NCBI GenBank assembly: GCA_029834535.1
Contig: JAQMWT010000128.1
Location: forward strand, 1-52,156
Reading direction: 5' to 3'
DNA from: Chrysophaeum taylorii
Lineage: Eukaryota > Sar > Pelagophyceae > Pelagomonadales > Pelagomonadaceae
DNA: 52,156 nucleotides
The translations under genes were made by a program, and so were the position numbers. This document shows, piece after piece, positions 3,492 through 39,811 of the stretch. The notes below the pieces were generated by a model, which worked only from the letters and a program-made list of their open reading frames with translations, had not been told where the DNA came from and made no database searches. Position 1 is the stretch's first letter; every line of letters starts with the position of its first letter.

Positions 3492-5795
3492 GTCGAAAAA
3501 CTGGCAAAGGATAGCATCATCTTTGACCGGGGCGATCTTCCAGTCGAGCGCGCCCTGTACGGGTCAGGATTGAACAAGACGACTATCCACAAATGGGTCG
3601 CATTGCGGATTGCGCTTGTGGACGACGTGGCCGTTCTAGCTGTTGCTATTGTGGCCGATACTAATCATCTATTTTTGCTGGGAGCGCGCGATATTCGGGT
3701 GTTGGGAGCCATAGTGGACTACCCGCGAAATCGCATTGCGTTTCTCCGCACACAAGTCGCTTATGGGCGCAAGAAGTTAGAGGTGCAGGATCGACGAGTC
3801 GATTCTCCGATTTTGACGTTCAGGACAACTTATGACGATCGCAATCCCGTGGTAGTTCAGGTTTATGGGCAACAGCACCATGCGATGCAAAAGAGCCTGA
3901 GCACAGTTGAGAACCGAGTCTACCCTCGCTTGTGCGAGATTGTAGACCTCCAACGTCCATCGCCGAAACGAGCGGGAGCTTCGACGACTTGGGGAGTCCC
4001 TCCAGTTATGCCTTCTCAAAGTTCGAACAGCGATGCCTATGAAGTGATGGCCTATGCTGCGCGCACGATGAAGGTCGAGCCTGTGAGCACCTACTGCGTG
4101 CCAGTCGCTCTTTCAGAGCCCATGGAAACTGGGCAAGTTCTCGTTGCTACGTCTTCCGGGTACGAGCAACTCGGGGTAGTCGATGGAATGTGTTCTTCTC
4201 CTGAGGATCATGATAAGTTCACAGCTCGAGTGGCGATATCCTCTACCCAGGATGTGCCGACCGTGATTACTCAAGGTGAAGTCATTGCGCTGGGCGATAT
4301 TGTTCGTTTTGATGACGAGCTGAATGCTGAGACGGTCGACGATTTAACGAAGGATGGTGAAGCCGAATCTAACAAGGCTAACCTATCATTCACTGTTTCG
4401 GTCGCAAGCCATCTGACTCAAGGCGATGCGGCTCCCGAACCGATGCTTTTGAGCTCGGTGCAGAAGGCGTCTCCTTCTGCCGATCAGAAGAAGAATTCTC
4501 GTCGAGAATCGCTCGGTGACGACGATTTCGACCGACGAACTGACGAGGAGGAAAAGAAATGCCGAGAAGTTACAGAAGGCGAGATTCGCCGAAGGTTTGA
4601 AAAGGTCCATTGGGTGCCGATCACGTATCGCAAGGTTGTGATGCTCTTTAGCGGCGCCGGAGGAAGTACTTTAGGACTGCAACGAGCGAACGAGTTGTGC
4701 GGGATGTCGTTTCGAGTCGTCCTTGCTCTTGACTCTTCAACAGCTGCCAACAAGGTTCATCAGAAGAATTTTCCAAAGATACCTGTGGTTCAGCACACGC
4801 TCTGCGGACGATATGGCTCGACCCTCCGATTGATCAAGGCGTATTTGCCTGAAGCGGAATGGTCATCGTCGATGTGTATAGCGTCTCCACCCTGCGTTCA
4901 TTCAGCACTCTGCAACTTGACATCCAGAGATGTTGGCAGGGGTGTTACGGCCACTAACTGGACGATGAAGCTGTGCAAAATGGCTGGCTTCATGATGTGG
5001 CTGATTGAACAGGAGGCGTCCATTATTTCGTATATAGCGCGCTTACACCCTTACGTGTACGTCGTCAATTTTCATGATATCACGCCCACTCTGATGAGCT
5101 CTCGCGTGCGATTGTTGGTTTCCAGTCACCCACTGCACTTGCAGGAGGCTCCGAAGACATGTGTGAACATGCAACAAAAAATTGCTGCAGCTTTAGGTTA
5201 TGCTCATGAACGCCACCTGCTCCAGCTGAATAATCTTGGCTCGCCCCGAAAAGCAACAGATACGGCTTACACCGTTACGCGAGTTCCTCTTCGTTTGGGA
5301 CCGCATCGCTCGGACACTCAGCCTTTGACTCTCGAGATGACGGCCGAGTTGCTCACGATGCCGGTGGAACAAGATTGGGCTAGCTTGTATAAGACAGATT
5401 CGTGCAAACATTTAGCGTCTGTCGTCACTCCAGACACTCTTGCGATTTTAGCAGTCGATCTGCACAACTCCGTGACCAGAGGTTTCCGCCAAAGTGGCGA
5501 AGTCCTGCCGACCGCGTTGAGCCCGACAGATCGATCCTTTGAGCAGCATTTGCGAATCTCCGACACAACCTTTCGTCACGTACAGATTCCGCTGTTAAAT
5601 GCGCGTACTCGTGTCGTTAAGTGGGTGTCAAAAGATGATCTCCATGATCCCACTAAATCGGTACCGCCAGAAGTCCCTATGCTTCCGCTTCCAGCAGATG
5701 CGCCGGGGACGGCTCATGATTTTTCTGCTGCCCCCCCCGACAATCAAAAATGGACGTTCCGCCGGATCCTGAACCTGAACAGGAGCCGAAAGTAA
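3492..5795 (+). CDS. Protease C-terminal half fused to cytosine-5 DNA methyltransferase (copy 1)
   Basis: One uninterrupted frame. It opens with the end of the protease (LLGARDIRVLGAIVDYP near 3680-3725, the hydrophobic-G-R/D signature of retropepsins). About 200 residues of linker follow, then a C5-methyltransferase. Counting from 3570, residues 360-365 are the SAM-binding motif FSGAGG. ALDSS with N-F-P downstream matches motif II. SPPC has the catalytic Cys at residue 442 (codon 4893-4895). The motif VI position reads E-Q-E rather than E-N-V. S-S-R-V-R-L-L-V matches motif VIII (Q-x-R-x-R), and a degenerate motif X (SVVTPDT) lies near 5420. The likely reaction is methyl transfer from SAM to cytosine C5. 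No chromatin-reading domain is visible. The stop at 5793 precedes the RT linker in another frame. Confidence 0.88.
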   Translation, partial: VEKLAKDSIIFDRGDLPVERALYGSGLNKTTIHKWVALRIALVDDVAVLAVAIVADTNHLFLLGARDIRVLGAIVDYPRNRIAFLRTQVAYGRKKLEVQDRRVDSPILTFRTTYDDRNPVVVQVYGQQHHAMQKSLSTVENRVYPRLCEIVDLQRPSPKRAGASTTWGVPPVMPSQSSNSDAYEVMAYAARTMKVEPVSTYCVPVALSEPMETGQVLVATSSGYEQLGVVDGMCSSPEDHDKFTARVAISSTQDVPTVITQGEVIALGDIVRFDDELNAETVDDLTKDGEAESNKANLSFTVSVASHLTQGDAAPEPMLLSSVQKASPSADQKKNSRRESLGDDDFDRRTDEEEKKCREVTEGEIRRRFEKVHWVPITYRKVVMLFSGAGGSTLGLQRANELCGMSFRVVLALDSSTAANKVHQKNFPKIPVVQHTLCGRYGSTLRLIKAYLPEAEWSSSMCIASPPCVHSALCNLTSRDVGRGVTATNWTMKLCKMAGFMMWLIEQEASIISYIARLHPYVYVVNFHDITPTLMSSRVRLLVSSHPLHLQEAPKTCVNMQQKIAAALGYAHERHLLQLNNLGSPRKATDTAYTVTRVPLRLGPHRSDTQPLTLEMTAELLTMPVEQDWASLYKTDSCKHLASVVTPDTLAILAVDLHNSVTRGFRQSGEVLPTALSPTDRSFEQHLRISDTTFRHVQIPLLNARTRVVKWVSKDDLHDPTKSVPPEVPMLPLPADAPGTAHDFSAAPPDNQKWTFRRILNLNRSRK

Positions 5796-5874
5796 GGAGC
5801 GAGCCGAATGTGCGCGTCAAAGGTGAAAAGACCAATAAGAGCCACCCTGAGGTGAGGTTCAAATACGGAGAAAA

Positions 5875-6147
5875 TTGGATGTGCCATGGAAGGATGCGCC
5901 GCGTGATGCGGGCGGTGTACCGTTACCGCAGACTCCCGAGCACGTCAAGGACAATGATGCGATGAAAGTCGTAATTCCGACGAAGGAAGAAGTCGAAAAA
6001 GTTGTTCGAGATCTGGGAATTCCCGACAACCCGCATCTGGATGATGATGCGAAGATGATGTTGAGCCACTGCGTGCAATACGCGTGGGCTTTCTTTGATC
6101 CGATTATGAGACCCGTGGACTCACCACCGGTTTCTCTACGATTTAAA
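5875..6147 (+). CDS. Linker to reverse transcriptase, N-terminal part (copy 1)
   Basis: Encodes a conserved segment (DVPWKDAPRDA, IPTKEEVEK, NPHLDDDA, MRPVDSPPVS) found in the same place in copy 2 (28845-29115). It joins the methyltransferase to the first strand of RT. The reading frame is interrupted by the family A retroposon at 6148 and resumes beyond it with DANPRPIKMTPYRL. Function is unknown; it is probably part of the Pol polyprotein just before RT. Confidence 0.55.
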
Positions 6148-6516
6148 TCCTTACCCTGATCGCCGACCGCATGGTTGCGATGGAGGACGGTGCCTCATGA
6201 ATCCTGAGCCTTGCGAGGGCATCCGCCCTCCCGGCGTAGGTTGGCACCTACTCGCCTCCCGGGCGGGCCGGTTGGCAGCCGGAACGTTCGCAGTGGGACG
6301 GGGTATGGCCGGGGGGCGCAGACGGAAGGTTATCGACGAGTTGGTTGTCAGTCACATCGCGGTCTCCTCGTCGCATGGCGACAAGCTTGATGATCACTCT
6401 CCGCCGACCCACCTTTCGGCGCCCCTCGTCTACAGGCCCGTGATTCCGGACTGGCTCCTGTCGGTCCGGCCTGGCTCCCATGCTCGGGAGAGGTCTGAAG
6501 TTAGTTAGTTAGTTAG
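6148..6516 (+). mobile_element. Short non-autonomous retroposon, family A (copy A2)
   Basis: Nearly identical to the copies at 3131 and 46081: 5' end CTTACCCTGATCGCCGA, 3' end TCTGAAG(TTAG)n. It interrupts the stretch just before RT. Comparison with the uninterrupted sequence in copy 2 (around 29110) shows the target; TTAAA occurs at 6143-6147 and again at 6517-6521, consistent with a short target duplication, though the tail itself ends in TTA. Confidence 0.87.
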
Positions 6517-6521
6517 TTAAA

Positions 6522-7500
6522 GACGCAAACCCACGACCGATCAAGATGACGCCTTATAGGTTGACGCCAGCAAAGCTCGAGTGTCTCAGAAAGCAGATCA
6601 CTGAGTGGTGTCGCGATGGAGTCATCCGACCGGCGAACTCTCCGTGGGGATTCCCTGTACTGGTGCTGCCTAAGAAGGGAGCAGAGGCCGGGACGTCGAA
6701 CGCTTTTCGTGCTGCAGTTGACTTGCGTCAGCTCAATGACAGTTGGCCGAATATTCGTCATGATGATGCTTTGGCTTTTCTTGTCATGCGCCGTTGGCGG
6801 ACGTGCATTGATATTCGATAGGGTTATCATAACCTACGTTTGGACGCCGCCGCTCAGGACGCCGTTACGATGGTTAGTCCACTTGGAGCCCCTAGTTTCT
6901 TGCGCTTGCCTGTAGGAGCACAAACAGCAGGAGCTCTCTTTTGTAAGCAGATGGCTAGCGATTTGTCCACATGGATGTATAAGGACTTGGTCGGGTTTGT
7001 CGACGATATTATGATGGGATCGGATGAACTCCACCGACATTTACAAGTTTTGATTGAAGTGTTGTGCCATTTAGCGCAGCGATGATATAGTGGGCGAACT
7101 TCGAAGTTCCACCTTCTCAAGGATGAAATCGAGTTTTTGGGACATATTTCGACTCCGGAAGGCTTGAAGCCGAAGCCCAAGACGTTAGAAGCGTTGCAGC
7201 AGATGCCGGTTCCTGGTACGTTGCCTAATACGTCCCCGAAGACCCAGATTCGATCTTCCATTGGCATGAGCAACTATTGCCGCCGATATGTGAAGAATTA
7301 TTCGAAGATTGTGGAGCCGCTTAGCCGATTGTGTCTTGAAGGCGTTAAGTTTGAGTGGACGCCTGAGTGCCAAAGGCATGGGATACGATCATCGAAGCTT
7401 TGGTGGACTCTCGCGGAGTTTATCATCCTGACTACGATCTTCCTTTTCAGATCCGCTCGGATGCTTCCAAGGATGGTCTGGGCGCGTATCTTTTCAGCTC
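6522..7500 (+). pseudogene. Reverse transcriptase, Ty3 type, broken (copy 1)
   Basis: RT motifs appear in order: PYRLTPAKLE, a strand with SPWGFPVLVLPKKG, AAVDLRQLND, TCIDIR, and the catalytic FVDDIMMGSD near 6997-7026. The connection domain (FLGHISTPEG, GMSNYCRRYVKNYSKI) follows. Breaks relative to copy 2 are a TAG at 6819 in place of Trp, an in-frame TGA near 7083, and a frameshift near 7375 that displaces the start of RNase H. The protein is Ty3/gypsy-like by the F-V-D-D box and the order RT-RNase H-integrase. Confidence 0.88.
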
Positions 7501-8154
7501 GTGGAAGTCAAGGACGAAACCGGCAAGGTGACACGAGAGGAACGAGTAATTGAGTATTGGAGCCGAGCTGTGCCGAAAGAGATGCGGAACTATGAGCCTC
7601 GCCGGCTAGAGCTACTGGCAGTTATTCTTTCTCTTGAGCATTTCCGCTCTTATATCGAAGGTCACAAGACGATCCTTGAAACAGATCATCGCAACTTGAC
7701 GTTTTTACGAAAGGCGAAGCACTCGTCTGGGCAGTTGGCTCGATGGGCGATGCGGCTCGCCAACTTTGATCCTGAATTGGGTTACAAACCAGGGAAGTCG
7801 CCGGGAATGAGTATCCCTAACTGTCCCTCTCGCAATCCTATAGATCATGTCATCGAGACGGACGAGTTTGGTGAACCCTTAAACCACGCGTATCTAGTGT
7901 GCCAAGAACTCCCCCGCCCTGTCGATGATGAAGGAGTACCTTTACCTGGGTGCCATGTCATTCTGTCGTTTGTTACGACTGAGTTGCCTGTGGAGGAAGA
8001 GGAAGAAGACCTCGATGATCCGATGCAATTGGTCACGTCTCATGCTACGAAACAACGTCAGAAGCAACGTCTGCAGACCCAGCCTAGTATTTTCCGTTAT
8101 GCCGATGACTACCAAGAGTACATCGGCAAGATTCCTATCATTATTATTGGTTAA
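7501..8154 (+). CDS. RNase H domain, Ty3 type (copy 1)
   Basis: Contains the typical segment EYWSRAVPKEMRNYEPR then RLELLAVILSLEHFR (conserved Glu) and ETDHRNLTFL (conserved Asp). The first catalytic Asp block (SDASKDGLGA in copy 2) lies upstream, frameshifted here. Downstream is a linker rich in acidic residues. The frame ends at 8154, and homology continues in the integrase frame from about 8150, so a small indel separates them. It would degrade the RNA of RNA:DNA hybrids during reverse transcription. Confidence 0.82.
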   Translation: MEVKDETGKVTREERVIEYWSRAVPKEMRNYEPRRLELLAVILSLEHFRSYIEGHKTILETDHRNLTFLRKAKHSSGQLARWAMRLANFDPELGYKPGKSPGMSIPNCPSRNPIDHVIETDEFGEPLNHAYLVCQELPRPVDDEGVPLPGCHVILSFVTTELPVEEEEEDLDDPMQLVTSHATKQRQKQRLQTQPSIFRYADDYQEYIGKIPIIIIG

Positions 8155-9109
8155 TTTGACATTGGAAGAGACAGCCAAAGAGCAGATCACTGATGCTACA
8201 TGCGAGGACATTCGTTATCGCATGGCTCTGGGCCATTCTCTTCGTCGGTACGGGGCCAATTATCGCTATAAAGTGGTGAAAGGAGTTATCTACCGTGCCG
8301 CACCTGACTTGCACCCGATGATAGTCGCACCCCGAACTTTACGGACGCGCATCATCCGATTGTACCATGACACACCTCTCAATGGTGGTCACATGGGTCG
8401 TCAAAGTACAGTGCAGTCGATACTTGAACGTTTTTGGTGGTCCCATATGTCTAATGAGGTGGGTGCTTACATTGCTGGTTGCATAGTGTGCAAGAAAGCT
8501 CGTAGAGCAGGTCTGCTTCAGCAACCGGTGTATGATGGTGATTGCGCCGTCCTTTGTATGGATTTGTTTGGACCTTTGCCCAGTGCTGGTCCCGAGACAT
8601 ATCTGATCATCTTTTTTTATCCATTTTCTCATTTCTTGATTCTCGACGTACTACACCACAAGACTGCTGAGTCAATCCTCGAGTCTTTTGTCGCGAATAT
8701 ATTACTCAAAGGTTATCTACCTCTGAGGATTCGTACCGACAATGGGAAAGAGTTCGTCAACAAGTCGATGGAAGAGTTTTGTCATCTCTTCAATGTTCGG
8801 TATAGTACCACGATTCCGCATCATGCTCAGGCTAATCCTGCGGAAAGGGTCAACCGCTTTGTCAAGGCTTTCCTCCGTGCGTGCCTTCAAAACCGCAAGA
8901 TCACGGAATGGCCCGAATTCGCGGAGTACATTGCTTTTTGCTACAATCGTAAGTTTATTCCGGGAACTCAGATCTCACCTTTCATGCTTCGTCTTAACCG
9001 GCAGCCTTTATTGCCAGCCGATTACACGATTATGGATCTTGATGTCCGCCGCCTGCCGAAAACTCGCTCCGATGTTGTGGCAGAGACTCGCGAGAGGCTG
9101 AAGTTCTAA
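8150..9109 (+). CDS. Integrase, N-terminal zinc and catalytic core (copy 1)
   Basis: The zinc-binding region reads H-x3 to 4-H (LYHDTPLNGGHMG) followed by CIVCKKA. The DDE core follows: CMDLFGPLPS (Asp), IRTDNGKEFVN (Asp) and PAERVNRF (Glu). The frame is open from 7925, but the part before about 8150 overlaps the RNase H frame and is spurious. A TAA at 9107-9109 replaces a Tyr codon seen in copy 2, cutting off the C-terminal third. It would join the element cDNA to host DNA. Confidence 0.85.
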   Translation, partial: VNLTLEETAKEQITDATCEDIRYRMALGHSLRRYGANYRYKVVKGVIYRAAPDLHPMIVAPRTLRTRIIRLYHDTPLNGGHMGRQSTVQSILERFWWSHMSNEVGAYIAGCIVCKKARRAGLLQQPVYDGDCAVLCMDLFGPLPSAGPETYLIIFFYPFSHFLILDVLHHKTAESILESFVANILLKGYLPLRIRTDNGKEFVNKSMEEFCHLFNVRYSTTIPHHAQANPAERVNRFVKAFLRACLQNRKITEWPEFAEYIAFCYNRKFIPGTQISPFMLRLNRQPLLPADYTIMDLDVRRLPKTRSDVVAETRERLKF

Positions 9110-9118
9110 ACCGCTACG

Positions 9119-9910
9119 GTGAACGACGCTCGTGAGAAGGCTCTTCGTAAACAACGTCTCGCCTACAATGCGGACCATGTCGATGTGGAGTATGAAGAAG
9201 GTTCACATGTTCTGCTCTACATCCCTTTTCTTCAGAACGAGCTTCGACCGGAATGGCGCGGTCCATTCGTTATTTTGGAACGCTTGTCCCCGGTCACTTA
9301 CAGGATTGAGTCTATTGATTCTCCTCCTGAACGCCGTTGTGTTCATGTGAGCCAGATCACCCCTGTGATGGTTTCTCCAGTGGTCGATCGAGCTGTGCCC
9401 AAGCCCAAAGAGACCTTTCGGGATGATTACAAGCATGGTAAGTTCGTTATCTTTCGGATTCCGGATAACAAACGGTCCGATTGGCGAAAGAAGATTTACG
9501 TCGCTGAAGTTTATGAACCCTATGATTTTGTGAATGATCGGGTCGCTCCGCATTTCTATGCTGATCTTGGTCCCCACGACAAGGTTTCTTATTACAAGCC
9601 TACCTCACATCTCTCTACTCGCAAGCTTAAGCCGGAATATAAGGACGTGGACGGTCGCAGTTTCACCGACAAGACCAAGGTCAACAACAGTACCGCTCCT
9701 TGTGTCACCGACTTCGCCCCGCATGAGATCGATGCGTTGATTCCTAAGTTCACCTTGCGTGGTGGACGCGTTCCTGAGCCTGTCGTTGAACGTGTCTACA
9801 AGAAGATTCGTTCCCGAGACGCTCATTCAGCCAAGGCTCGTGCTTCTCGCCGGACTCGCGGAGGGCAGCTCGTGTTCTCACCAGGGGAGTCCTGTGGCGG
9901 CAACTCCTGA
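9119..9910 (+). CDS. Integrase C-terminal domain and long conserved extension (copy 1)
   Basis: Continues integrase after the stop at 9109. It has the GPY/F-like module (RPEWRGPFVILERLSPVTYRI split over 9247-9310), then about 170 residues conserved in copy 2 (KFVIFRIPD, WRKKIYVAEVYEPYD, KPTSHLSTRKLKP, DFAPHEIDALIPKF). No chromodomain signature is visible, so the extension is of unknown role; it could serve targeting or be a cleaved tail protein. The frame ends inside the first bases of the 3' LTR. Confidence 0.75.
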   Translation: MNDAREKALRKQRLAYNADHVDVEYEEGSHVLLYIPFLQNELRPEWRGPFVILERLSPVTYRIESIDSPPERRCVHVSQITPVMVSPVVDRAVPKPKETFRDDYKHGKFVIFRIPDNKRSDWRKKIYVAEVYEPYDFVNDRVAPHFYADLGPHDKVSYYKPTSHLSTRKLKPEYKDVDGRSFTDKTKVNNSTAPCVTDFAPHEIDALIPKFTLRGGRVPEPVVERVYKKIRSRDAHSAKARASRRTRGGQLVFSPGESCGGNS

Positions 9911-19231: not shown

Positions 19232-19269
19232 GAGAGACAGCGAGATAGTAGTCGTTGCTATGTGCGAGA

Positions 19270-20190: not shown

Positions 20191-20221
20191 GTGGCGTCCA
20201 GAAGAGAGCTATGCAAGCGGA

Positions 20222-21985: not shown

Positions 21986-22171
21986 GGATCCTTGAGTGTG
22001 GTTGCCATAGTCGATGTAGGCGCAATACTCGGGGACATCTCGAAGTGTCTTGTTCGTTGACTTGTCGACCGTGGGAGCGAGGTGGCTTGGCGTTCCGTCG
22101 GCAAGGCTGCTTCCTGGGCCGTTGTGGCCGAAGAGAGAAGAAGCCCTTTTGCATGTCTAGGCAGCATGATG

Positions 22172-22176
22172 GTGAT
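22172..22176. repeat. Target site duplication GTGAT, left
   Basis: GTGAT lies directly before the first base of the 5' LTR and again directly after the 3' LTR at 33114-33118. A perfect 5-bp duplication is typical of Ty3 integration and proves the two LTRs bound a single insertion. Confidence 0.92.
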
Positions 22177-22513
22177 TGTGGCGGAAACTCCCGCCTCCTA
22201 AGGCTTACCCCTCCTTTACCCCCCCCCCTTATCAGGGGCACTCTACTCCGTTCTGATGATGTCAGTTGTCTCTATGACATAATCGTCCTTTTCCGTGACA
22301 TGTGTCACCCTGATTTCTGTGATTCGAGAGTATCTTAATCATAAAGCAACAGTCGACCCTCAAGTTTTGAGGACCAGGCACGGAAGTTGTTTGTGGTTGT
22401 GTGGCGAGTGAACGGCCTTCCTCGTCCAGTGACTCGATCAAGGTCACGGACGCGAGCGGCGAACCTAGATTTGAAGGTGAGCCAGGTAGGGACAATTTCC
22501 CTGTTACGCCACA
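22177..22513 (+). repeat. 5' LTR of Ty3 copy 2
   Basis: Begins TGTGGCGGAAACTCCC and ends CTGTTACGCCACA, with TG...CA termini. The promoter should lie in it, but no convincing TATA box stands out; CATAAAGC near 22340 is a weak AT-rich candidate. Confidence 0.93.
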
Positions 22514-22955
22514 GGTGGTGGAGGAATACGAGAATCGAGCGACCATATCGGTCGCAGCGGACGAGTGCATCTTGCATTCTCTACACGGTCCGGACAAGCC
22601 GTGCGCGCCCTGATCAAGCGCGCCGACGAATAGTTCGAGAGGGACCATCGCCGCGGGAAAGATCCCCGGCCGGATACGTTGGTCGTCGGAGGTGACGACG
22701 CGCGGATCGGTTCGAGCCGACGCGCAACCCGGGTACCGCTGCCGCAGGCGAGCGGAGTGAGATCGCAACTCACTGAGGCATTGATTGCCGGGCAGAGACG
22801 GACTCTGCCGCCCACCGGAACTGATAGATCAGTCGGTGGAAGACGCACGCAGCGACGATATTACGCGTGACGTGGACGAGTAGAAGTCCCAGAGTCGTAG
22901 GAACACGAGAACGACGACGACTCAGCCATTTTGGACCCGTTCAGACTCTAGCCGA
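22514..22955 (+). promoter_or_regulatory. Untranslated leader with candidate primer-binding site
   Basis: Two bases after the LTR comes TGGTGGAGGAATACGAGA, which starts with the TGG expected for pairing with a tRNA CCA end. I could not match it to a particular tRNA. The rest (about 420 bases) is GC-rich with no long frame of its own and leads to the first Gag ATG at 22956; it should hold packaging signals. Confidence 0.45.
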
Positions 22956-23756
22956 TTGGAGCGAGCCGGAGCCGACATGGAGGACGATGATGCTGCTGAC
23001 GAGCAGATACGAGAACCCGAACCTTCAAGTCGTCCCGAGGGGACGAACGAGCGGAACGATGATGATGAAGACGATTTTGATGATATTGATAATGATGATG
23101 ATGAATATGCTAACGATGACGATGACAATGAAGAAGAGCTGAACTACAACGGCGACGAACCGTTGGAAGCGCCGCAGGAGAGGCAACCGACAGCTCAGTC
23201 AACACGTGCACGAAACACAGAAGCACCGATCATGAACGAGATTTACGAGGCTCATCTACGCGAGTTACGCCGAGAAAACGAACGCGCGCAAGAGAGCATT
23301 CTACAGCAGATAGCAGAAGAAAACAAGCGGCGTGAACGGCTACGCCAGAAGGAGTTAGACGAGATGCGAGAGCAACTGCGGAAAGCAAACGCTCTGACGG
23401 AGGAACTCCACGAACAAGTACGGCTACTGACCCGGGAGAGGGACGAATTACGTACGCCGAGTCGCTCGAGGCGAGCGAGCAGCCCGGGGTCCCGACCCGA
23501 GGAAGAGCCGCCGCCTACGCGAACACGCGCGAAAGTTAGGAAACCGCGCTACGACGACGATGATTACGAGACTAAGGAGGAGACGCGTGACGATGGGAAG
23601 GTCAACGACCAGAAGTTCCTCATGGACTTCACTGACCGGTTCGCCAGCGCGGTAGCTAAGCATGATCGCAGTAAGGATCGGCGATCAACCTCCGGATTGA
23701 AGACTGAAACGTTCAAATGGGTCTTGGTGGTCGCGACCAGGACCAGTTCGATTTAG
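22956..23756 (+). CDS. Gag N-terminal region, acidic and coiled-coil (copy 2)
   Basis: An ATG frame of 266 codons. Residues 1-75 are strongly acidic (runs of D and E, with N). Residues 90-165 form a charged helix with heptads (LREL, IAEENKRRERLRQKELDEM in part) likely to be a coiled coil. A Ser/Arg/Pro linker and a short DQKFLMDFTDRFASAV helix follow. The frame ends at 23756, while the capsid continues from 23717 in the -1 frame. Copy 1 changes frame at a different place, so this is probably a mutation rather than a programmed shift. Confidence 0.65.
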   Translation: MERAGADMEDDDAADEQIREPEPSSRPEGTNERNDDDEDDFDDIDNDDDEYANDDDDNEEELNYNGDEPLEAPQERQPTAQSTRARNTEAPIMNEIYEAHLRELRRENERAQESILQQIAEENKRRERLRQKELDEMREQLRKANALTEELHEQVRLLTRERDELRTPSRSRRASSPGSRPEEEPPPTRTRAKVRKPRYDDDDYETKEETRDDGKVNDQKFLMDFTDRFASAVAKHDRSKDRRSTSGLKTETFKWVLVVATRTSSI

Positions 23757-24604
23757 ATGCAGATGCCGTGATGAGCACGTTGGCCGACGACCATTACAGC
23801 ATGGAAAAGCTGCGGTATTTACTGCCGGTCAGCTTACGCGACACGGTCGCACCGATTTTCCGAGAGCACTTGAAGAAATACAAAGAAGAGTGCAAGGACC
23901 TCGACCATCCGGCGTCTTTTTATTTACGTCGGGACGTCGACGATGACGAGTACGGTTCAGTGGTACGAAGACGACGACGACTTAACAGAGAGTACTGCAT
24001 CAAGATTTTGAACTACTTCCGATCGAGTTGCCCTTTGCCTATGACGACAGAGGAGCTACTACGAAAACTTCAGAGTACGACCCAGGCGTCCGTTCCGAAA
24101 AGACCTGGGGAACGCCATGTGCACACTTATTGCACCAAATTCCAGAGCGAGGCGATGGCCTACTGCTCTGTGGCAAATCGAGACCTCAATGATGTTGAGA
24201 TCATTTCTTATTTGATACGTGGACTGGAGTCCAGCGACTTACGATCCCGCGTGCGGACCATGCGCAGCGGGCACCCGACTACGTACGATACGTTTTCGTC
24301 GACGTTGTCACTGATTACGCGGCTCGAGAACGATTACGCGACCGCGTTGGAAGAGCAGAACGACCGCAACTCGAAGAACCCGTCGAACGGGAAATCGCAG
24401 AAACCGCCGCATGGACGCGGAGGCCGAGCACTAGCCTCGGGACTGAAAGATAAGAAGACGAAATATGAATCGACACGATTAGAAGAGAATCCGAAAAAGT
24501 GGTACGAGCTCACATGCGAGAATTGTGGATTTTTTCTCTCGACCCACAACAAGGATGAACATGGGAGCCGCGTTATTTGCAACCGCGAGCCCGATGAGTA
24601 TTAA
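23717..24604 (+). CDS. Gag capsid and zinc-binding motif (copy 2)
   Basis: A 295-residue frame. The helical capsid has YLLPVSLRDTVAPIF, a TYCTKFQSEAMAYCS segment, VEIISYLIRGL, and RTMRSGHPTTY at the end of the domain. Near residue 266 is C-x2-C-x6-H-x4-H-x5-C, the same non-classical cluster as in copy 1. The TAA at 24602-24604 replaces a Tyr codon present in copy 1, cutting the protein within that cluster's tail. The capsid assignment rests on position and helical content. Confidence 0.7.
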   Translation: MGLGGRDQDQFDLDADAVMSTLADDHYSMEKLRYLLPVSLRDTVAPIFREHLKKYKEECKDLDHPASFYLRRDVDDDEYGSVVRRRRRLNREYCIKILNYFRSSCPLPMTTEELLRKLQSTTQASVPKRPGERHVHTYCTKFQSEAMAYCSVANRDLNDVEIISYLIRGLESSDLRSRVRTMRSGHPTTYDTFSSTLSLITRLENDYATALEEQNDRNSKNPSNGKSQKPPHGRGGRALASGLKDKKTKYESTRLEENPKKWYELTCENCGFFLSTHNKDEHGSRVICNREPDEY

Positions 24605-25692
24605 GCTGCGATGTGCAAATACATCGAAAACGACAAGAAACCTCCATCTGAGGCAGATGGGAGAGTGAGAGTCGACAGAAGAAGGATACCCAGTCGCGCG
24701 ATGATGGCAGTTCGAATGCCACTCTCGGTTCGAGCGCCGCTCATGATATTCAGAGCAGGCTCAACGACATAGGCACGCAGCTGACCACGGTCATGGATTC
24801 AGTGAAGCACTTGAAAGATGGACACGGCCGATCGTCTTCGACACGACCGGGCCGTCGAGACTGCCGGAGCCCCCGACGCCGCGACAAGAGCCGCAGTCAC
24901 AGTTCACGTTCGCGCCGACGGAAAGAAAGCCGGAGCCCTAGCAGACATTCGCGCCGACGCCGGCGACGAAGATCTCGCGACCGCGATTCGGACGGTGGAC
25001 GTTGCCGAGAAGATTCGGGACATTCGTCTGCCACGTTCGCGTTTACGACCCCTTGCGGTCAACAGTTACCATTAGCAGTGAGGATGTACCCGGACACGGA
25101 CACTCGCTCCGACGACGCAGCCGACGCTTTTGCCGCGGCCGCATTCGAAGATCGTGCTCGCCCGCCGCCGGACGAGCCACCCAACGAAGTGCTAACCGAT
25201 CGTCGGTCTTTGGCACGGATTTACGAGGAGATGTCGGGCGATGAACCCGGCGAATCGAGCGAGGAACTCGAAGCTCCACGATACTGGGAAGGCGATTCGG
25301 ACTCGGAAGACGACGAAGCCGCACCTTGTGAACCAGTGTCCTCGATTACGTTATTTGACGAGTCGTCCAAGGACGACCCACCGTTGGTTTTTGACGAGGA
25401 AGCCCTCGACGCTACCGGCCTATCTTTGGATCCCCCCGAGATGACCTTTGGCGACCGGACTGGCAGTGAGCCAGACATGAATTTCTGCAGCGATAGCACG
25501 GATGATCATTCGACAGATGAGACGATGACCATTGCGAGTGATGCAGACGACGATCTTACGATAGAGTTGACGTCGGGGACGACGCCATCTTTTCCTGCGG
25601 ACCCCCCCGAAGCGGTTTCGGTAACGACGGATCGAGCCACGGATACGCCGCCGGAAGAAAAGGACACGAAATCGCATAATGCGCCGGACTAG
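24605..25692 (+). CDS. Gag tail: Arg/Ser-rich region and acidic C terminus (copy 2)
   Basis: After the Gag stop the frame shifts once, and from 24793 an open frame of 299 codons runs to 25692. It begins with an RS domain (alternating SRS, RRR and SPSRHSRRR stretches) and then a long acidic, Pro/Ser/Asp-rich tail with SGHSSATFAF, EAPRYWEGDSDSEDDE and ELTSGTTPSFP, all matched in copy 1. Such an RS-rich tail is rare in Gag and suggests RNA or SR-protein binding. 25693-26046 has no open frame of note. Confidence 0.6.
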
Positions 25693-26046
25693 AAGCTACG
25701 TGCACGGTCCGAAGACGAAAGGAACGATTCTCCAATTGAGCAATGCCCGGAGTTGTCACCGCCAGAAGAAGAGAGCAGTGACAGCGCTGCTGGAGTCGAG
25801 CCGAACCCAACCGAAGAAGATGGATTTAAGAAGGAGATTAGCAAAGTTCTCGATTGAAACGAAGATGAGCCGACGTGGAACCTGCAGGATTGGTGGACGA
25901 GAACTCGGAACTTCTTGCTAAAGAAGCCGCCAGAACGACCGCTCAGCTACGGAATCGAAGCCGCAGCTGGCACGGAACCGATCGGCACCGACTGTGACGA
26001 TCAACAGAGGACGAATTAATCTACGGATACATTCTGAAAAGACGAA

Positions 26047-27216
26047 ATGAACGAGTTGTGTGTGAGGTCCTTTGCTTCCGAGAACGCCGAAGACCGGGAT
26101 CCCCTACCAGCATTGATTCCCTCCGAGATTGTCATGGAGGAAGAGCGGAAGCCACCAGATAAAGAGGCTGCCGCGAGCGCTGCGTCGATGACGCCGACGA
26201 CAGATGATACGAGAGCTCAAGCCGCGGTGTCGATGCCCAACCCCGGCGACGAGCGAGTTAGAGCCCAATGTTCTCACACTTCGTTAACGCCGCGAGATGG
26301 CAAGACTATCGAAGAAGATTTGGTTACCCTCAGTTGTTTGGATACGGGTACTCTGACGTTTATGGCCTGTCACATCTACAGGGATGGTGACGGACCGAAA
26401 TTCTCGACGACCATTGGTGTTGATGTAATGGCAGATGTTTCTTATATTTGCCTCGAAATGGTCAGAAAGCTGGCCAAAGATAAGCTGATTTTCGATGAAG
26501 GCGAGCTTCCGATTAAGCGCAAGCTGTACGGCGGGGTAGAATACGACGACGACCTATCGTTGGATCGCGATCCGGGTTGCCCTCGCCGACGACATCGCTG
26601 CCCCCATTGTCGCTGTTGTGGCCGACACCAATTATCTTTTCCTGTTGGGAGGGCGCGATATCCGAGTTTTAGGAGCCGTTGTGGACTACCCCCACGATCG
26701 GATCTGTTTTTATCGGGAACCCAGGTCGTCTACGGGCGCAAGAAGATTAAAGTCAAGGGTGAACGAGTCGATGCACCCATTGTAACCTTTCGATCTGTTT
26801 ACGATCGAGATCCGATAACCGTACCGATTTACAATCACCAGCACGACGCCTATCGGCAGAGTCTCGACCTGGTCAAGACTCGAGTTTACGCTCGTCTGAG
26901 CACGATTAAAGATCTCCGCAGCCCGCCGCCGGAACGAGCGGTAGCCTTGACGACGCGGGGACATTCTACGACCAAACTCTCCCCAGCTCCGGGAGAAGCC
27001 GCGCAGGAAGCGGTTGCTTACGCTGCGCGCACGCTACAAATCGAGCCCGGTAGGACTTACAATTTACCGGTTATTTTGTCGAAGCCTATGGAAAAAGGAC
27101 AGGTCTTCGTCGCTACGTTTGCTGAAAACGAGCAGCTGGGAATTGTCGAAGGGATGTGTTCTTCTTGCGAAGAGCACGACAAGTCATCTGCTCGCGTGGC
27201 TGTTACTTCCCCGTAA
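26047..27216 (+). pseudogene. Protease region (copy 2), frameshifted
   Basis: Shared with copy 1: CSHTSLTPRDG, TIEEDLVTLSCLD, GPKFSTTIGVD, ADVSYICLEMVRKLAKD (the latter in the place of the D-T-G-A-D-V-S strand of retropepsins). The second half (IALADDIAAPIVAVV, LFLLGGRDIRVLGAVVDYP) is present but in another frame between about 26555 and 26705; two compensating indels explain why a single frame still runs through. A TAA at 27214 then separates it from the methyltransferase part. The Asp protease assignment is inferred from the two signature strands. Confidence 0.6.
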
Positions 27217-27219
27217 GAA

Positions 27220-28881
27220 TTGCCAACGGTCGTCACTCAAGGCGAGGTTCTCGCAGTTGCTGATATCGTTCGGTACGAAGATGAGTTGAACGTTTCTACG
27301 ATCAACGAGCTTACGAAAGAATGTGAAGAAGGGTACGACAAGGGTAACCTTTCCTTCACCGTTTCCATCGCTAGTCACTTGACGCGCTGCGATGAATCTC
27401 CCCCGCCGATGTTGCTGTGCACGGCGCAGAAGGACGCTCCAGCCGCTGTTACGGACGAGTCCTCCCCCAAACGACCCAAGCGAGACGACGATTTCGTTCG
27501 ACGGTCTGAAGAAGATGAGAAGAAATGCCGCGAGATCACCGAAGCGGAGATCCGCCGCCGATACGAAAAGGTTCAATGGCTTCCGATCACTTATCGCAAG
27601 GTGGTGATGCTGTTCAGTGGAGCCGGGGGCAGCACTTTAGGTCTCCAACGAGCCAACGAAATGTGTGGAACGTTGTTTCGAGTCGTGTTAGCACTCGATT
27701 CGTCGGACACCGCCAACAAGATCCACCGCAAGAATTTTCCGAACATTCCTGTGGTGCAGCACACGCTTTGTGGTCGCTATATTACAACCTTGCGGTCGAT
27801 CGAATCTTATTTAGCTCACGCGGAATGGTCGTCGTCGATGTGCATCGCGTCGCCACCCTGCGTGCACTCCGCTCTGTGCAACTTGACTTCCCGAGATGCT
27901 GGGAAGGGTGTCACCGCCACCCACTGGACGATGAAATTATGCAAGATGGCTGGTTTCTTCACGTGGTTGATAGAGCAGGGTGCCTCGATTATTTCTTATG
28001 TTGCGCGGTTGCACCCTTATGTGTACGTCGTCAATTCTTACGACATAACGCCCAGTTTGATGAGCTGTCGCGTGCGGTTGTTGGTTTCCAGCCACCCGCT
28101 CCATTTGCGCGCAGTTCCCAAGACTTGCAAGAATATGCAACAAGAGTTCGCCGCTGCGCTTGGCTACGCAGACGAACGGCATTTACTTCAGATGAACAAT
28201 TTAGGATCATCACGAGCCGCGACAGACGCAGCTTATACCGTTGCGCGTGTCCCGCTTCGCGTAGGACCGCACCGTTCCGATTACAGATCTCTGAATCTGA
28301 AAATGACTTCGGAGTTGCTGACGACGCCCCTTGACTTTGATCGGGCCGGCTTCTCCAGGACGACCTCGTTGAAACACTTGGCGTCCGTCGTGCCACCAGA
28401 CACGATGGCTTTATTAGTACTCGATCTGCACAACTCTGTGACCAAGGATTTTCACTTGAGCGGCGAGGCTTTGCCGTCCGCGTTGAGTCCTGCAGACCGA
28501 CCGTTTGATTATTATTTGCAAATCGATGAAACCACCCTTCGTCACGTACAAGTTCCGCTGTTAAACACGCGCACACGTGTCGTAAGATGGGTGTCGACTG
28601 ATGATCTCCAAGATCGCACCATTTGGAAACCTCCAGAAGTGCCTTTGCTTCCGCCTGCAACAGATGAGGCGGGGACGTCTCATGCTTCCTCTGCTGCCCC
28701 GCCCCGCCAACCAAATTTGGACGTTCCGCCAGATCCTGAGCGAGATCGGGAACCGAAGATTAAGAGCGAGCCGAGCGTTCGTGTCAAAGGCGAGAAGATC
28801 AACAAAAGCCACCCGGAAGTGAGACAAAAATATGAGAACAAAGTTCGATGTGCCATGGAAAGATGCGCCGCGCGATGCTGA
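27220..28881 (+). CDS. Cytosine-5 DNA methyltransferase domain (copy 2)
   Basis: A 553-residue open frame. FSGAGG lies at residues 132-137 (SAM binding, motif I). LALDSS...K-N-F-P matches motif II. SPPC has the catalytic Cys at residue 214 (codon 27859-27861, motif IV). E-Q-G stands where family members have E-N-V. S-C-R-V-R-L-L-V is motif VIII-like, and a motif X-like ASVVPPDTMALL lies near residues 388-400. It is collinear with copy 1, with high identity through the catalytic core. No BAH, CXXC, PWWP or helicase domain accompanies it. Predicted to methylate DNA cytosine, perhaps the element's own cDNA (inference). It is preceded by about 125 residues of conserved linker and followed by a Pro-rich tail. 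Confidence 0.9.
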   Translation: MPTVVTQGEVLAVADIVRYEDELNVSTINELTKECEEGYDKGNLSFTVSIASHLTRCDESPPPMLLCTAQKDAPAAVTDESSPKRPKRDDDFVRRSEEDEKKCREITEAEIRRRYEKVQWLPITYRKVVMLFSGAGGSTLGLQRANEMCGTLFRVVLALDSSDTANKIHRKNFPNIPVVQHTLCGRYITTLRSIESYLAHAEWSSSMCIASPPCVHSALCNLTSRDAGKGVTATHWTMKLCKMAGFFTWLIEQGASIISYVARLHPYVYVVNSYDITPSLMSCRVRLLVSSHPLHLRAVPKTCKNMQQEFAAALGYADERHLLQMNNLGSSRAATDAAYTVARVPLRVGPHRSDYRSLNLKMTSELLTTPLDFDRAGFSRTTSLKHLASVVPPDTMALLVLDLHNSVTKDFHLSGEALPSALSPADRPFDYYLQIDETTLRHVQVPLLNTRTRVVRWVSTDDLQDRTIWKPPEVPLLPPATDEAGTSHASSAAPPRQPNLDVPPDPERDREPKIKSEPSVRVKGEKINKSHPEVRQKYENKVRCAMERCAARC

Positions 28882-29674
28882 TGGCGCACCGCGGCCGCAA
28901 ACTCCCGAACATGCCAAGGATAACGACGTTATGAAAGTGAAGATTCCTACGAAGGAAGAAGTGACAAGGTTGTTCAGGAGCTTGGAATTCCTGACAATCC
29001 GCACTTAGATGACTACGCGATGTTGATGCTCCGTCACTGTGTGCAATATTCTTGGGCCTTTTTCGACTATTATGAGACCTGTGGACTCGCCACCTGTGTC
29101 TCCACGATTCAAAGACGCGAATCCGCGACCGATTAAGATGACGCCCTACCGACTGACGCCTGCGAAGCTCGATTGTCTCCGCAAGCAGATCAGTGAGTGG
29201 TGTTGGGATGGAGCCATTCGCCCGGCCAACTCGCCTTGGGGATTTCCTGTGTTGATGCTTCCCAAGAAGGAGCTGAGATTGGAACGTCAAGCGCGTTCCG
29301 TGCTGCAGTGGACTTACGTCAGCTCAACGATCAACTGGTCAATGACAGTTGGCCGAACATTCGACAAGACGATGCTTTAGCCTTTCTCGCCATGCGACGC
29401 TGGCGGACATGCATTGATATTAGATGGGGATACCACAATCTTCGTCTGGATCCGGCAGCGCAAGACGCTGTCACGATGGTTAGCCCACTTGGCGCTCATA
29501 GTTCCTTGCGATTACTCTGGGTGTGAAGACGGCCGGAGCTCTTTTCTGCAAGCAGATGGCGAGCGACCTTTCGAAATGGATGTATCGAGACTTGGTTGCG
29601 TTTGTTGACGATATTATGATGGGATCCGACGATCTTCATCGACATTTACAAGTTTTGATCGAAGTTATGAGCAT
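28845..29674 (+). pseudogene. RT linker and reverse transcriptase palm, broken (copy 2)
   Basis: The linker (FDVPWKDAPRDAD, IPTKEEV) is followed by RT in three frames: MTPYRLTPAKLDCL, SPWGFPVLMLPKK, then AAVDLRQLND, TCIDIRWGYHNLRLD, MVSPLGAHSS, and AFVDDIMMGSDD (catalytic box near 29605-29635). Shifts occur near 29275 and 29520, and a stop falls after the palm. The Trp of IRWGYH, a stop codon in copy 1, is intact here. Confidence 0.85.
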
Positions 29675-30799
29675 TTGGCACAGATAGGGTACAGCGGTCG
29701 AACCGCAAAGTTCCACCATCTCAAGGATAATATAGAATTCCTGGGACACATTTCGACCCCAGAAGGCTCGAAGCCGAATGCGAAGACGCTGGACGCGCTG
29801 CAGAAGATGCCGATTCCAGGTACTTTGCCGAATACTTCTCCGAAGACCCATATACGCTCTTTCATCGGCATGAGTAATTACTGCCGGCGATATGTGAAAG
29901 GCTACTCGAAGATTGTGGAACCGCTGAGACGATTATATCTCTAAGGCGTAAAGTTCGAGTGGACGCCCGAGTGTCAAAAAGCTTGGGATGCGATTATTGA
30001 AGCTCTGGTTGATTCCAGAGGAGTCTACCACCCCGATTGTGATCTGCCCTTTCAGATCCGATCCGATGCTTCCAAGGATGGACTTGGAGCATATCTCTTC
30101 CAGATTGTCGAAGTCAAGGACAAGGCAGGAAGAGTGACTCGAGAAGAACGAGTGATTGAATACTGGAGCCGAGCCGTGCCGAAGGAGATGCGCAATTATG
30201 AGCCCCGTCGGCTGGAGCTGCTGGCTGTTATCATTTCTCTGGAGCACTTTCGAGCCTATATTGAAGGGCACCGGACTGTTTTGGAAGCCGATCACCGAAA
30301 TTTGACGTTTTTATGTAAGGCGACGCACTATTCTGGACAGCTTGCTCGTTGGGCGATGCGCCTCGCCAACTTTGATCCTGAACTTGGCTACAAGCCGGAA
30401 AAGTCGCCGGGTATGAGTATCCCTGACTGTCTCTCCAGCAATCCGATAGATCATGTCATCGAGACTGGCGAGTTTGGTGAACCTTTGAACCATGCTTGTT
30501 TGGTGTCCCAAGAGCTTCCCCGACCTATTGATGACCATGGAATTCCTGCCTCCGGCTGTCACTTCATATTGTCGTTTGTCACGACCGAACTGCCGGAAGA
30601 CGCGGAAGAAGATCCCGAGAAAGATCCGATGAGACTGGCTACGTCCCACGCTAAGAGACAACGTCGGAAGAACCGCGTGCGCGATGAGCCGCAGGTCTTC
30701 AAGGACGCCGCCGCCTGCAAGGATTACATTGATAAAACTCCCGATAATATGACGCTCGATGAGATCGCGCGTGAGCAAGAATCTGATGCTACTTGCTAG
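29675..30799 (+). CDS. RT connection and RNase H (copy 2)
   Basis: The connection is at 29675-29944 (FLGHISTPEG, IRSFIGMSNYCRRYV), ending in a TAA that replaces Glu of copy 1. The same frame then continues through RNase H: IRSDASKDGLGAYL (first Asp), EPRRLELLAVIISLEHF (Glu), EADHRNLTFL (Asp), then GYKPEKSPGMSIPDC. It stops at 30797-30799, again where copy 1 has Glu. It is typical Ty3 RNase H of normal length. Confidence 0.83.
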
Positions 30800-30882
30800 G
30801 ATATTCGCTATCGGATGGTCCAAGATCACACGTCGCGACGTTACCGAGCGGACGAACGATGCGAAGTTGTGAAAGGCATTCT

Positions 30883-31153
30883 AACTAACTAACTAACTAA
30901 CTTCAGACCTCTCCCGAGCATGGGAGCCAGGCCGGACCGGCAGGAGCCGGCACGGAATCACAGAGAAAATTCACGCAGTTGGGGCAGAGGGACGAGGACG
31001 GACTTGTTGATGGTGGACCGCCACTGCGCGCGGTCTTGTGCGAGGTCGTGCAAAAGCGTCGCAGGTCGCGGACGTGTTGGTCCACGAACAAATCGACCTG
31101 TCCGTCGCGTTCTACCCAACCGAGCGAACCCCATCCCAGCGCGGACTTTCCGG
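30883..31153 (-). mobile_element. Short retroposon, family B (copy B1), internally deleted LINE
   Basis: Read on the minus strand, it has LINE 5' sequence (from CCGGAAAGTCCGCGCTGGG to GACCTGCGACGC) joined directly to LINE 3' sequence (GCACGACCTCGCACAAG to the CTGAAG(TTAG)n tail). The whole coding region is gone. It is flanked by GTGAAAGGCATTCT (30869-30882) and GTGAAAGACATTCT (31154-31167), a 14-bp target duplication with one mismatch; Ty3 copy 1 has only one such sequence. The same internal junction recurs in the element at 46964-47381. Confidence 0.9.
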
Positions 31154-31735
31154 GTGAAAGACATTCTTTACCGCATTTCTGCTGATTTGCACCCGATGAT
31201 TGTGGCCCCTGCAACGTTGCGCAAGCGCATTATTCGACTCTACCATGACACTCCGGTTAACAGTGGTCATATGGGACGTCACAGTACTGTCCAGGCTATC
31301 CAGGAACGATTTTGGTGGCCCCAGATGTCGAACGAAGTCGGAGTCTTCATTGCTGAATGTTTAGTTTGCCAGAAAGCTCGCACGCCTGAACCGAAACGAG
31401 CTGGACTCTTGCAGCAGCCTGTCTACGATGGTGATGGCGCTGTTCTATGCATGGATTTATTTGGACCTTTGCCCAGTGCTGGTCCCGAGACGTATCTTCT
31501 AGTGTTTTTCGATCCGTTCTCGCACTTCTTGATTTTGGATGTTTTGAACGATAAGACTGCTGAATCCATTCTCGAGTCTTTTGTCATTAACATCCTCCTC
31601 AAGGGCTATTTGCCCCAGATGATTCGTACCGACAACGGTAAAGAGTTCGTGAACAAGTTGATGCGCGAGTTTTGCCATCTCTTCAACACGCAATACCAGA
31701 CTACGATTCCCTATCATGCCCAGTCGAGCGTGTGA
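31154..31735 (+). CDS. Integrase, zinc domain and most of catalytic core (copy 2)
   Basis: Starts in the target duplication of the retroposon. Zinc domain: LYHDTPVNSGHMG and CLVCQKA. Core: CMDLFGPLPS (Asp) and IRTDNGKEFVN (Asp). The frame ends at 31735 just after YHAQSS, because about nine or ten bases present in copy 1 are missing, so the catalytic Glu block VERVNRF is read in the next frame. An open frame extends upstream into the retroposon but is spurious there. Confidence 0.82.
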   Translation: MKDILYRISADLHPMIVAPATLRKRIIRLYHDTPVNSGHMGRHSTVQAIQERFWWPQMSNEVGVFIAECLVCQKARTPEPKRAGLLQQPVYDGDGAVLCMDLFGPLPSAGPETYLLVFFDPFSHFLILDVLNDKTAESILESFVINILLKGYLPQMIRTDNGKEFVNKLMREFCHLFNTQYQTTIPYHAQSSV

Positions 31736-32736
31736 ACAGATTTATCAAGGCCTTCCTCCGTGCCTGCCTTCAGGGCCGGAACATCACGGATTGGCCCGAC
31801 TTTGCCCACTATATTGCGTTTTGCTACAACCGCAAGTTTATTCCAGGCACGCAGATTTCTCCCTTTATGCTACGCCTGAACCGTCAGCCTATGTTGCCGA
31901 CCGATCATACGCTTATGGACTTTGATACGCGATTGTTGCCGAAGACTCACTCTGATGCAGTCGCTGAAACTCGTGAACGATTGAAGTATTATACGAAGAT
32001 CGTCCACGAAGCTCGTGATAAAGCTTTGAAGAAACAACGACTGGCTTACAACGCCGATCATGTCGATGTCGAATACAAGGAAGGATCGCATGTTTTGCTT
32101 TACATTCCTTTCCTTCAGAACAAGCTTCGACCGGAATGGCGAGGACCGTTTATTATCAAGGAACGCCTTTCCCCGGTCACCTATAGGATTGAGTCTCTCG
32201 ACTCTCCGCCCGAAGAACGACGTGTTCATGTTAGTCAGATCACGCCTGTGATGGTTCCCCCGATCGTTGATCAAGCCATCCGCAAACCCGAAGAAACCTT
32301 CCGTGATGATTATCAGCACGGTAAGTTTGTTGTTTTCCGGATTCCTGACCGGAAGCGCTCTGATTGGCGCAAGAAGATCTATGTTGCTGAAGTTTACGAG
32401 CCTTACGATTACCAGAATGATCGTGTTGCTCTACATTGCTATTCCGATTTGGGTCCGAACGACGATGTCGCTTATTTCAAGCCGACCTCTCACCTTTCGA
32501 AGCGCAAGCTCAAACCCGGGTACAAGGACGTTGACGGTCGCAGTTTCACTGACAAGTCCAAGATCTCATCCAACACAACTCCTCGTGTCACGGATTTCGC
32601 TCCGCACGAGATTGATGTGTTGGTCCCCAAGTTTACTCTACGCAGTGGTCGCGTTCCCGAATCGATCATCACCCGCGTTTACAAGAAGGTTCGTTCACGA
32701 GATGCTCGTGAGGCGAAGCCGCGCTCCTCGCGCTAG
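31726..32736 (+). CDS. Integrase end, GPY/F module and long conserved extension (copy 2)
   Basis: Opens with VERVNRFIKAFL (catalytic Glu), then FIPGTQISPFMLRLNRQ, a helix, and the GPY/F-like LRPEWRGPFIIKERLSP. About 180 further residues are shared with copy 1: KFVVFRIPDRKRSDWRKK, YVAEVYEPYDYQND, KPTSHLSKRKLKP, VDGRSFTDK, DFAPHEIDVLVPKF and RVYKKVRSRDA. The extension has no chromodomain or other domain I recognise. It ends about 40 bases before the 3' LTR. Confidence 0.8.
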   Translation, partial: ERVNRFIKAFLRACLQGRNITDWPDFAHYIAFCYNRKFIPGTQISPFMLRLNRQPMLPTDHTLMDFDTRLLPKTHSDAVAETRERLKYYTKIVHEARDKALKKQRLAYNADHVDVEYKEGSHVLLYIPFLQNKLRPEWRGPFIIKERLSPVTYRIESLDSPPEERRVHVSQITPVMVPPIVDQAIRKPEETFRDDYQHGKFVVFRIPDRKRSDWRKKIYVAEVYEPYDYQNDRVALHCYSDLGPNDDVAYFKPTSHLSKRKLKPGYKDVDGRSFTDKSKISSNTTPRVTDFAPHEIDVLVPKFTLRSGRVPESIITRVYKKVRSRDAREAKPRSSR

Positions 32737-32766
32737 CCGCTCGCTGGGGTAGCTCGTATTCTCACC

Positions 32767-32773
32767 AGGGGAG
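32767..32773 (+). other. Polypurine tract
   Basis: AGGGGAG stands three bases before the 3' LTR, and the identical tract precedes the LTR of copy 1. It is likely the plus-strand primer of reverse transcription. Confidence 0.6.
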
Positions 32774-32776
32774 TCC

Positions 32777-33113
32777 TGTGGCGGAAACTCCCGCCTCCTA
32801 AGGCTTACCCCTCCTTTAGCCCCCCCCCTTATCAGGGGCACCCTACTCCGTTCTGATGATGTCAGTTTTCTCTATGACATCATCTTTCTTTTCCGTGACA
32901 TGTGTCACGCTGATTTCTGTGATTCGAGAGTATCTTAATCATAAAGCAACAGCCGATCCTCAAGTTGTGAGGACCAGGCACGGAAGTTGTTTGTGGTTGT
33001 GTGGCGAGTGAACGGCCTTCCTCGTCCCGTGACTCGATCAAGGGCACGGACGCGAGCGGCGAGCCTAGATTTGAAGGTGAGACAGGTAGACATAATTTCC
33101 CTGTTACGCCACA
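32777..33113 (+). repeat. 3' LTR of Ty3 copy 2
   Basis: Matches 22177-22513 in length and ends, differing at about 17 positions by hand alignment. Confidence 0.93.
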
Positions 33114-33118
33114 GTGAT
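33114..33118. repeat. Target site duplication GTGAT, right
   Basis: Identical to 22172-22176; the plus-strand sequence then continues with CATGACC, restoring the interrupted block. Confidence 0.92.
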
Positions 33119-39730: not shown

Positions 39731-39744
39731 GATCCTTACCCTAA

Positions 39745-39800: not shown

Positions 39801-39811
39801 CAGGTGCAGGC

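Follow-up and report, generated by a model that had tools for sequence, protein, structure and literature searches.

A putative C5-cytosine methyltransferase domain within pol of a Ty3/gypsy retrotransposon family of the pelagophyte Chrysophaeum taylorii

The element and its surroundings

The window, by which we mean the whole stretch of 52,156 nucleotides of Chrysophaeum taylorii DNA that was analysed, carries two related Ty3/gypsy copies on its forward strand. One of them (copy 2, 22172..33118) is bounded by a pair of LTRs (5' LTR, 22177..22513; 3' LTR, 32777..33113), which are 95% identical, have TGTGGCG...CGCCACA ends and are flanked by a target duplication of 5 bp (GTGAT; 22172-22176 and 33114-33118). 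The protease region of its pol (26038..27216) was identified by eye from retropepsin-like stretches and gave no Pfam match. It is followed by the open reading frame on which this study centres (27217..28881), which opens behind a stop codon that terminates the upstream ORF in that ORF's frame, and whose 3' end departs from the frame of the other copies. The methyltransferase core, 287 aa long, lies within it at 27577..28437 and contains motif I (FSGAGG), motif IV (SPPC), a motif VI-like IEQ, motif VIII (CRVR) and a motif IX/X-like end.

Downstream, and on the same strand, lie a frameshifted reverse transcriptase (RT) region (29262..29752), whose limits are approximate as they were transferred by alignment from a copy on contig C5 (P0003, in which RVT_1 covers residues 1740-1904), and three regions delimited by Pfam: an RNase H domain (PF17917, 30035..30373), the integrase zinc-binding and core domains (PF17921 and PF00665, 31208..31717) and the integrase C-terminal part (PF22938, 31642..32736). 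An insert on the minus strand (30914..31153), which carries a SINE-like repeat, separates RNase H from integrase. Copy 2 is disrupted by stops, frameshifts and this insert; the order RT, RNase H, integrase, together with the LTRs and the target duplication, identifies it as a Ty3/gypsy element.

Copy 1, also on the forward strand, has a methyltransferase region (4254..5909) with 66% identity to that of copy 2 and a core (4611-5471) with 78% identity, followed by RT, RNase H and integrase in frameshifted pieces (6504..9850); no 5' LTR of this copy was found within the window. The SINE-like repeat occurs on both strands of the window, at 3129-3494, 6173-6514, 30882-31156, 46078-46443 and 47290-47623, with identities of up to 98%; two of these repeats lie in copy 1 and one in copy 2. 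Between the elements lies a 750-aa ORF on the minus strand (36353-38602), perhaps a host chromatin gene, which contains a bromodomain and matches PWWP below the cut-off. The window also includes a duplication of ~1 kb (38750-40700, 91-100% identity) with CAGTAAGTTCACC-type tandem repeats, and a tandem duplication with a period of ~820 bases (49187-50622, 94-100%).

Assignment of the domain to the C5-methyltransferases

An earlier sequence-only reading had proposed that this frame encodes a DNA cytosine-5 methyltransferase, on the grounds that FSGAGG, SPPC, CRVR and a motif X-like end follow one another in the expected order and spacing. All of these lie where it had placed them, and an unguided MAFFT alignment with five C5-methyltransferases (from phage KP15, two plasmids, host DNMT2 and host DNMT5) brought motifs I (FSGAGG), IV (SPPC), VIII (CRVR), IX and X, along with ALD, into register. 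The profile search that the same reading had suggested was significant: PF00145 scored 26.9 bits (E 4e-6) against the core and 24.4 bits (E 2.4e-5) against the whole ORF, both exceeding its curated cut-off of 22 bits. The profile matched all nine aligned copies at E-values up to 1 (best 3.4e-6), and on longer frames gave 18.4 bits for the whole frame of the C5 copy, which is under the cut-off, 19.4 bits for the longer ORF of copy 1 and 22.0 bits for another copy. PHROG DNA-methyltransferase families matched with E-values of 7.3e-8, over a stretch from motif I up to and including SPPC (core residues 8-95), and 1.6e-6. NCBIfam TIGR00675 scored only 18 bits (E 0.0014); its cut-off, 101 bits, is also missed by host DNMT2 (54 bits) and host DNMT5 (72 bits).

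The two halves of the domain are not equally well supported. When residues of four copies were shuffled and scored with two small profiles, the score of the whole core was reached by 0 of 1000 shuffles in each case, while that of the part from motif IV to X was reached by 10 to 72 per 1000, and that of the tail past PPC by 22 to 286 per 1000. This difference makes the N-terminal half of the predicted methyltransferase domain secure at the level of sequence, and leaves the C-terminal half borderline, with its support coming from motif order and conservation and not from score. AlphaFold models of the two window copies were unreliable (mean pLDDT 32) because the alignment was too shallow; even so modelled, the N-terminal half would have the strand-helix order expected for a methyltransferase.

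The low-confidence models, and a significance that holds by itself only for the N-terminal half, would be expected if the resemblance were due to chance or to a generic Rossmann fold and the domain were no C5-methyltransferase at all. We consider this very improbable, since Pfam and NCBIfam (the latter at E 0.0014 only) name the C5 class and the PHROGs name DNA methyltransferases, whereas the only methyltransferase family of another kind to match did so with one of the nine members and at E 0.062; moreover, motifs IV, VIII, IX and X fell in order in an alignment that had not been guided. Identity of the domain as a methyltransferase part of a Ty3/gypsy pol is, judged from sequence, highly probable, and it lies between the protease region and RT, as the earlier reading had also claimed.

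Motif conservation was assessed in copies fetched from 34 distinct places, mostly the best-scoring ones. FSGAGG is present in 32 of the 34 (the remaining two have FGGAGG and FIGAGA), and SPPC, with the catalytic cysteine, and RVR in every one. Classical C5-methyltransferases have ENV as motif VI and a GN in motif X, and share a characteristic motif spacing. In the gypsy domain the GN is replaced and ENV is absent; instead all 34 copies have IEQ 38 residues past the catalytic cysteine, retaining only the Glu of ENV. The MAFFT alignment with the five references does not place IEQ on ENV, although a distance of 38 residues from the cysteine would suit motif VI. The loss of ENV and GN and the strong divergence of the C-terminal half raise the question of whether catalysis has been lost, with the domain now serving pol only by binding SAM or nucleic acid. 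We regard this as unlikely, given that all 34 fetched copies retain SPPC, RVR and, at the spacing of motif VI, a Glu.

As for its relatives, the host genes identified among the 50 of 57 genomic PF00145 matches that were assigned are a DNMT2 (L001, contig C634; PDB 1g55, E 4e-39) and a DNMT5 (L002, contig C621; PDB 7r76, E 9e-128). The latter structure is titled DNA repair protein Rad8, which we take to be the fungal DNMT5. Both host enzymes have the C5-methyltransferase motifs, as the gypsy domain does, but the latter is distant from both: from motif I as far as SPPC it is 26% identical to host DNMT2 (E 3e-4 in a single comparison), versus a best E of 0.37 with host DNMT5. Among PDB matches to E 1, with sequence or profile queries, there were no DNMT3 chains, and the only methyltransferase chains, weakly matched, were DNMT2 (E 0.17-0.2). 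The domain might then be a DNMT2-like enzyme acting on RNA, either that of the element or a tRNA (the primer, or LTR-targeting fragments), and the missing CpG footprint described below would also fit. We judge this rather improbable: the DNMT2 scores are weak, similar to those of unrelated chains (E 0.35-0.5), and concern the N-terminal half only, and a pattern for tRNAs whose acceptor stem would suit the presumed primer-binding site matched 19 times, versus 7 for the backward control, with none of the 6 viewed being tRNA-like.

No homologues of the ORF (at E 1e-3) or of either the gypsy or the copia-borne domain alignment (at E 1) were found in a search of 5.8 billion proteins, in which up to ~8000 word-sharing candidates of 0.55-1.75 times the query length were scored, a limit under which long polyproteins would escape detection. 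No homologues were found among viral contigs either.

Genomic copies, selection and a second family

Used as a query on the organism's own genome (70.8 Mb in 697 contigs), the ORF had at least 78 matches, the window's own included; this is a lower bound, as 78 of 1375 candidates were scored. The other 77 listed matches have 71-92% identity, and in 48 of the 78, counted by eye, the matched part has no stop. Contigs C10 and C297 in this search, and C25 and C521 in the search with the copia-borne domain, look like mutual duplicates. The C5 copy consists of one open frame (3063 aa as listed, 2806 aa as fetched), in which the methyltransferase domain, at residue 1186, is followed by RVT_1 (1740), RNase H (1999) and integrase (2295; H2C2, then rve). 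The stretch N-terminal of its methyltransferase domain had no Pfam match, and gag and protease were judged there by position and by eye. A chromodomain profile found 4 matches in the genome.

The gypsy copies form two subfamilies. Between them, dN/dS of the methyltransferase region is 0.05-0.10 (16 pairs, with dS saturated at 1.4-2.7), that of RT 0.02-0.05 (6 pairs) and that of integrase at most 0.05 (dS mostly saturated). The N-terminal linker, at 0.08-0.15, is nearly as constrained as the domain, and the C-terminal linker has 0.16-0.27, or 0.38-0.48 in pairs with the broken copy 1; the methyltransferase and linker values come from 8 copies chosen out of 38 that had been extracted, a set in which some places are represented twice. 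Within subfamilies the domain has dN/dS of 0.10-0.43, as expected because the copies are decaying. Judged by these ratios, the gypsy methyltransferase domain is kept under purifying selection. Across 27 copies, methyltransferase distances agreed with RT distances (r 0.59, with 2 of 2000 permutations); among the 24 copies in the main subfamily alone they did not (r 0.14, with 432 of 2000 permutations).

PF00145 had 57 matches in the genome, of which 2 are the host genes and 48 of the other 55, paired by eye, are copies of one further domain; 7 of the 57 fall outside these assignments. A direct search with this second domain gave at least 117 rows at ~110 places (110 of 668 candidates scored). 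Its Ty1/copia context was read from the surroundings of two copies: a single 1952-aa frame on contig C96 with PF00145 (349-475), rve (E 0.006, under the cut-off) and RVT_2 (E 2e-38), and an 1868-aa frame on contig C314 with PF00145 and RVT_2. A protease-like stretch, recognised by reading, lies N-terminal of the methyltransferase. Copies of this family were seen on C96, C314, C582 and other contigs (L046, L047, L048). PCQ is present at all nine fetched places and ENV at eight (L007 has ENA), and motif I is unusual. In 38 of 39 printed pairs below 90% identity dN/dS is 0.10-0.20, with one pair at 0.55 (one place being counted twice); by this measure the copia domain, too, is under selection.

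In this genome both domains sit in LTR elements, behind a protease region, which would be consistent with one capture that was later passed between element types. This is a rather unlikely scenario, as no kinship between the two domains was detected (hhalign probability 0.3%), but since both alignments are shallow, an old common origin could still lie behind them.

The window itself contains, on the minus strand, a Ty1/copia element that showed no methyltransferase (42589-46084; gag_pre-integrs and RVT_2, with zf-CCHC and rve under cut-off), so the plain form seems to coexist with the methyltransferase-bearing one. A stretch at 18176-18949, also on the minus strand, was considered as a third working methyltransferase and rejected: it is the methyltransferase-to-linker region (25% identity) of a decayed relative of the methyltransferase-bearing copia family that lies within 18176-22156, with its protease region at 21935-22156, and it has lost the PCQ stretch.

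Methylation footprint, interpretation and known captures

Across 30 gypsy loci, transitions per site were 0.0313 at CpG versus 0.0301 elsewhere, a ratio of 1.04 (376 of 435 pairs used, the pairs being non-independent). CpG observed/expected is 1.29 in the gypsy copies and 1.18-1.46 at 8 host gene loci; the copia-family copies have a CpG to non-CpG transition ratio of 1.11 and an observed/expected of 1.05. No trinucleotide context of mutation stands out in the copies. Since the gypsy copies show neither CpG depletion nor CpG hypermutation, heavy and lasting CpG methylation of these copies is argued against, and transient methylation is compatible with the data.

Starting from the domain, its position, its copy number, the selection on it and the retained catalytic cysteine, we infer a capture, a complete fold, catalysis, a substrate and a benefit as follows. 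An ancestor of the gypsy family would have captured a C5-methyltransferase, for which no Dnmt3 link was found, between protease and RT, before the two gypsy subfamilies split. Both subfamilies would then have retained it, with RT and integrase, under purifying selection. The enzyme would most likely be freed from the polyprotein inside the particle, where the SPPC cysteine would methylate the element's own nucleic acid, probably the cDNA and less probably RNA or the primer, so that a new copy would be marked before or at integration. We give this explanation as a whole a probability of roughly 60%; taken as a step of its own, self-methylation by the element's enzyme is tentative, at somewhat under even odds. 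The idea put forward at the outset, of an element that methylates DNA, perhaps its own copies, to evade or steer host silencing, has thus held up in part: a methyltransferase domain in the Ty3/gypsy pol, maintained by selection, stands, but the score of the C-terminal half falls short of significance when taken by itself, and the copies have no methylation footprint.

A broader reading, which we offer as speculative, is that Ty3/gypsy and Ty1/copia elements of one ochrophyte genome independently captured different non-Dnmt3 C5-methyltransferases, and that, in a host with DNMT5 and DNMT2 as the only enzymes identified among its own genes, the element enzymes supply de novo methylation that DNMT5 maintains, or that the gypsy enzyme is directed at RNA (its own RNA or the primer). 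To our knowledge, how DNMT5 lineages set new methylation is unclear, and element-borne enzymes are a testable candidate. With its small genome (71 Mb), the organism is suited to testing the capture of DNMTs by retroelements.

That retroelements can carry the very class of enzyme used to silence them is a rare known phenomenon, which would here be extended to a new branch of life. As the sequence-only reading had stated for dinoflagellates and charophyte algae, such captures are established: KnitGypsy-Dnmt3 in one charophyte, and SymbioDIRS-Dnmt3 and SymbioLINE-Dnmt in dinoflagellates, were described in 2018 (PMC5890265). In the literature searched, the matches listed included no report of methyltransferase-carrying retroelements in pelagophytes and nothing pairing 'Chrysophaeum taylorii' with 'retrotransposon', and the string 'retrotranspos' is absent from the main text, as available, of the C. 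taylorii genome paper (PMC10366177).

KnitGypsy-Dnmt3 of Klebsormidium nitens resembles the pelagophyte element: it too is an LTR Gypsy element whose Pol ORF includes a C5-methyltransferase, and it is present in several copies under purifying selection (Ka/Ks < 0.2; PMC5890265). It differs in its charophyte host and in clustering with Dnmt3, whereas the pelagophyte gypsy domain has no detected Dnmt3 link; furthermore, a figure legend (Fig. 4) describes its repeats as a DIRS-like arrangement, while the pelagophyte element has plain LTRs and a 5-bp target duplication. The SymbioDIRS-Dnmt3 and SymbioLINE-Dnmt elements of Symbiodinium are likewise retroelements with embedded C5-methyltransferases, many copies and selection, but they are DIRS and LINE elements, whereas the pelagophyte carriers are gypsy and copia. 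The SymbioLINE domain is described as an orphan lineage, and its copies are CG-depleted, unlike the pelagophyte gypsy copies. In yeast, SymbioDIRS-Dnmt3 enzymes produced CG methylation, and KnitGypsy-Dnmt3 gave no activity in a test that its authors termed inconclusive (all PMC5890265).

One sentence of a later paper, referring to the 2018 study, places DNMT3 in 'LTR Copia and DIRS' retrotransposons (PMC12344493); it thus names Copia as a carrier, as in C. taylorii, but names the class as DNMT3. This may be a slip or reflect new data, because in the 2018 paper the charophyte carrier is Gypsy, and Copia elements of Symbiodinium are reported to lack a DNMT (PMC5890265). Compared with these systems, sequence comparison supports placing the gypsy capture in another phylum and without a detectable Dnmt3 link, and what sets the present case apart is the pelagophyte host, that missing link and a second, copia-borne family. 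With a further host lineage, with gypsy and copia elements both as carriers and with Dnmt3 not detectably involved, capture of C5-methyltransferases would become a recurrent strategy of retroelements.
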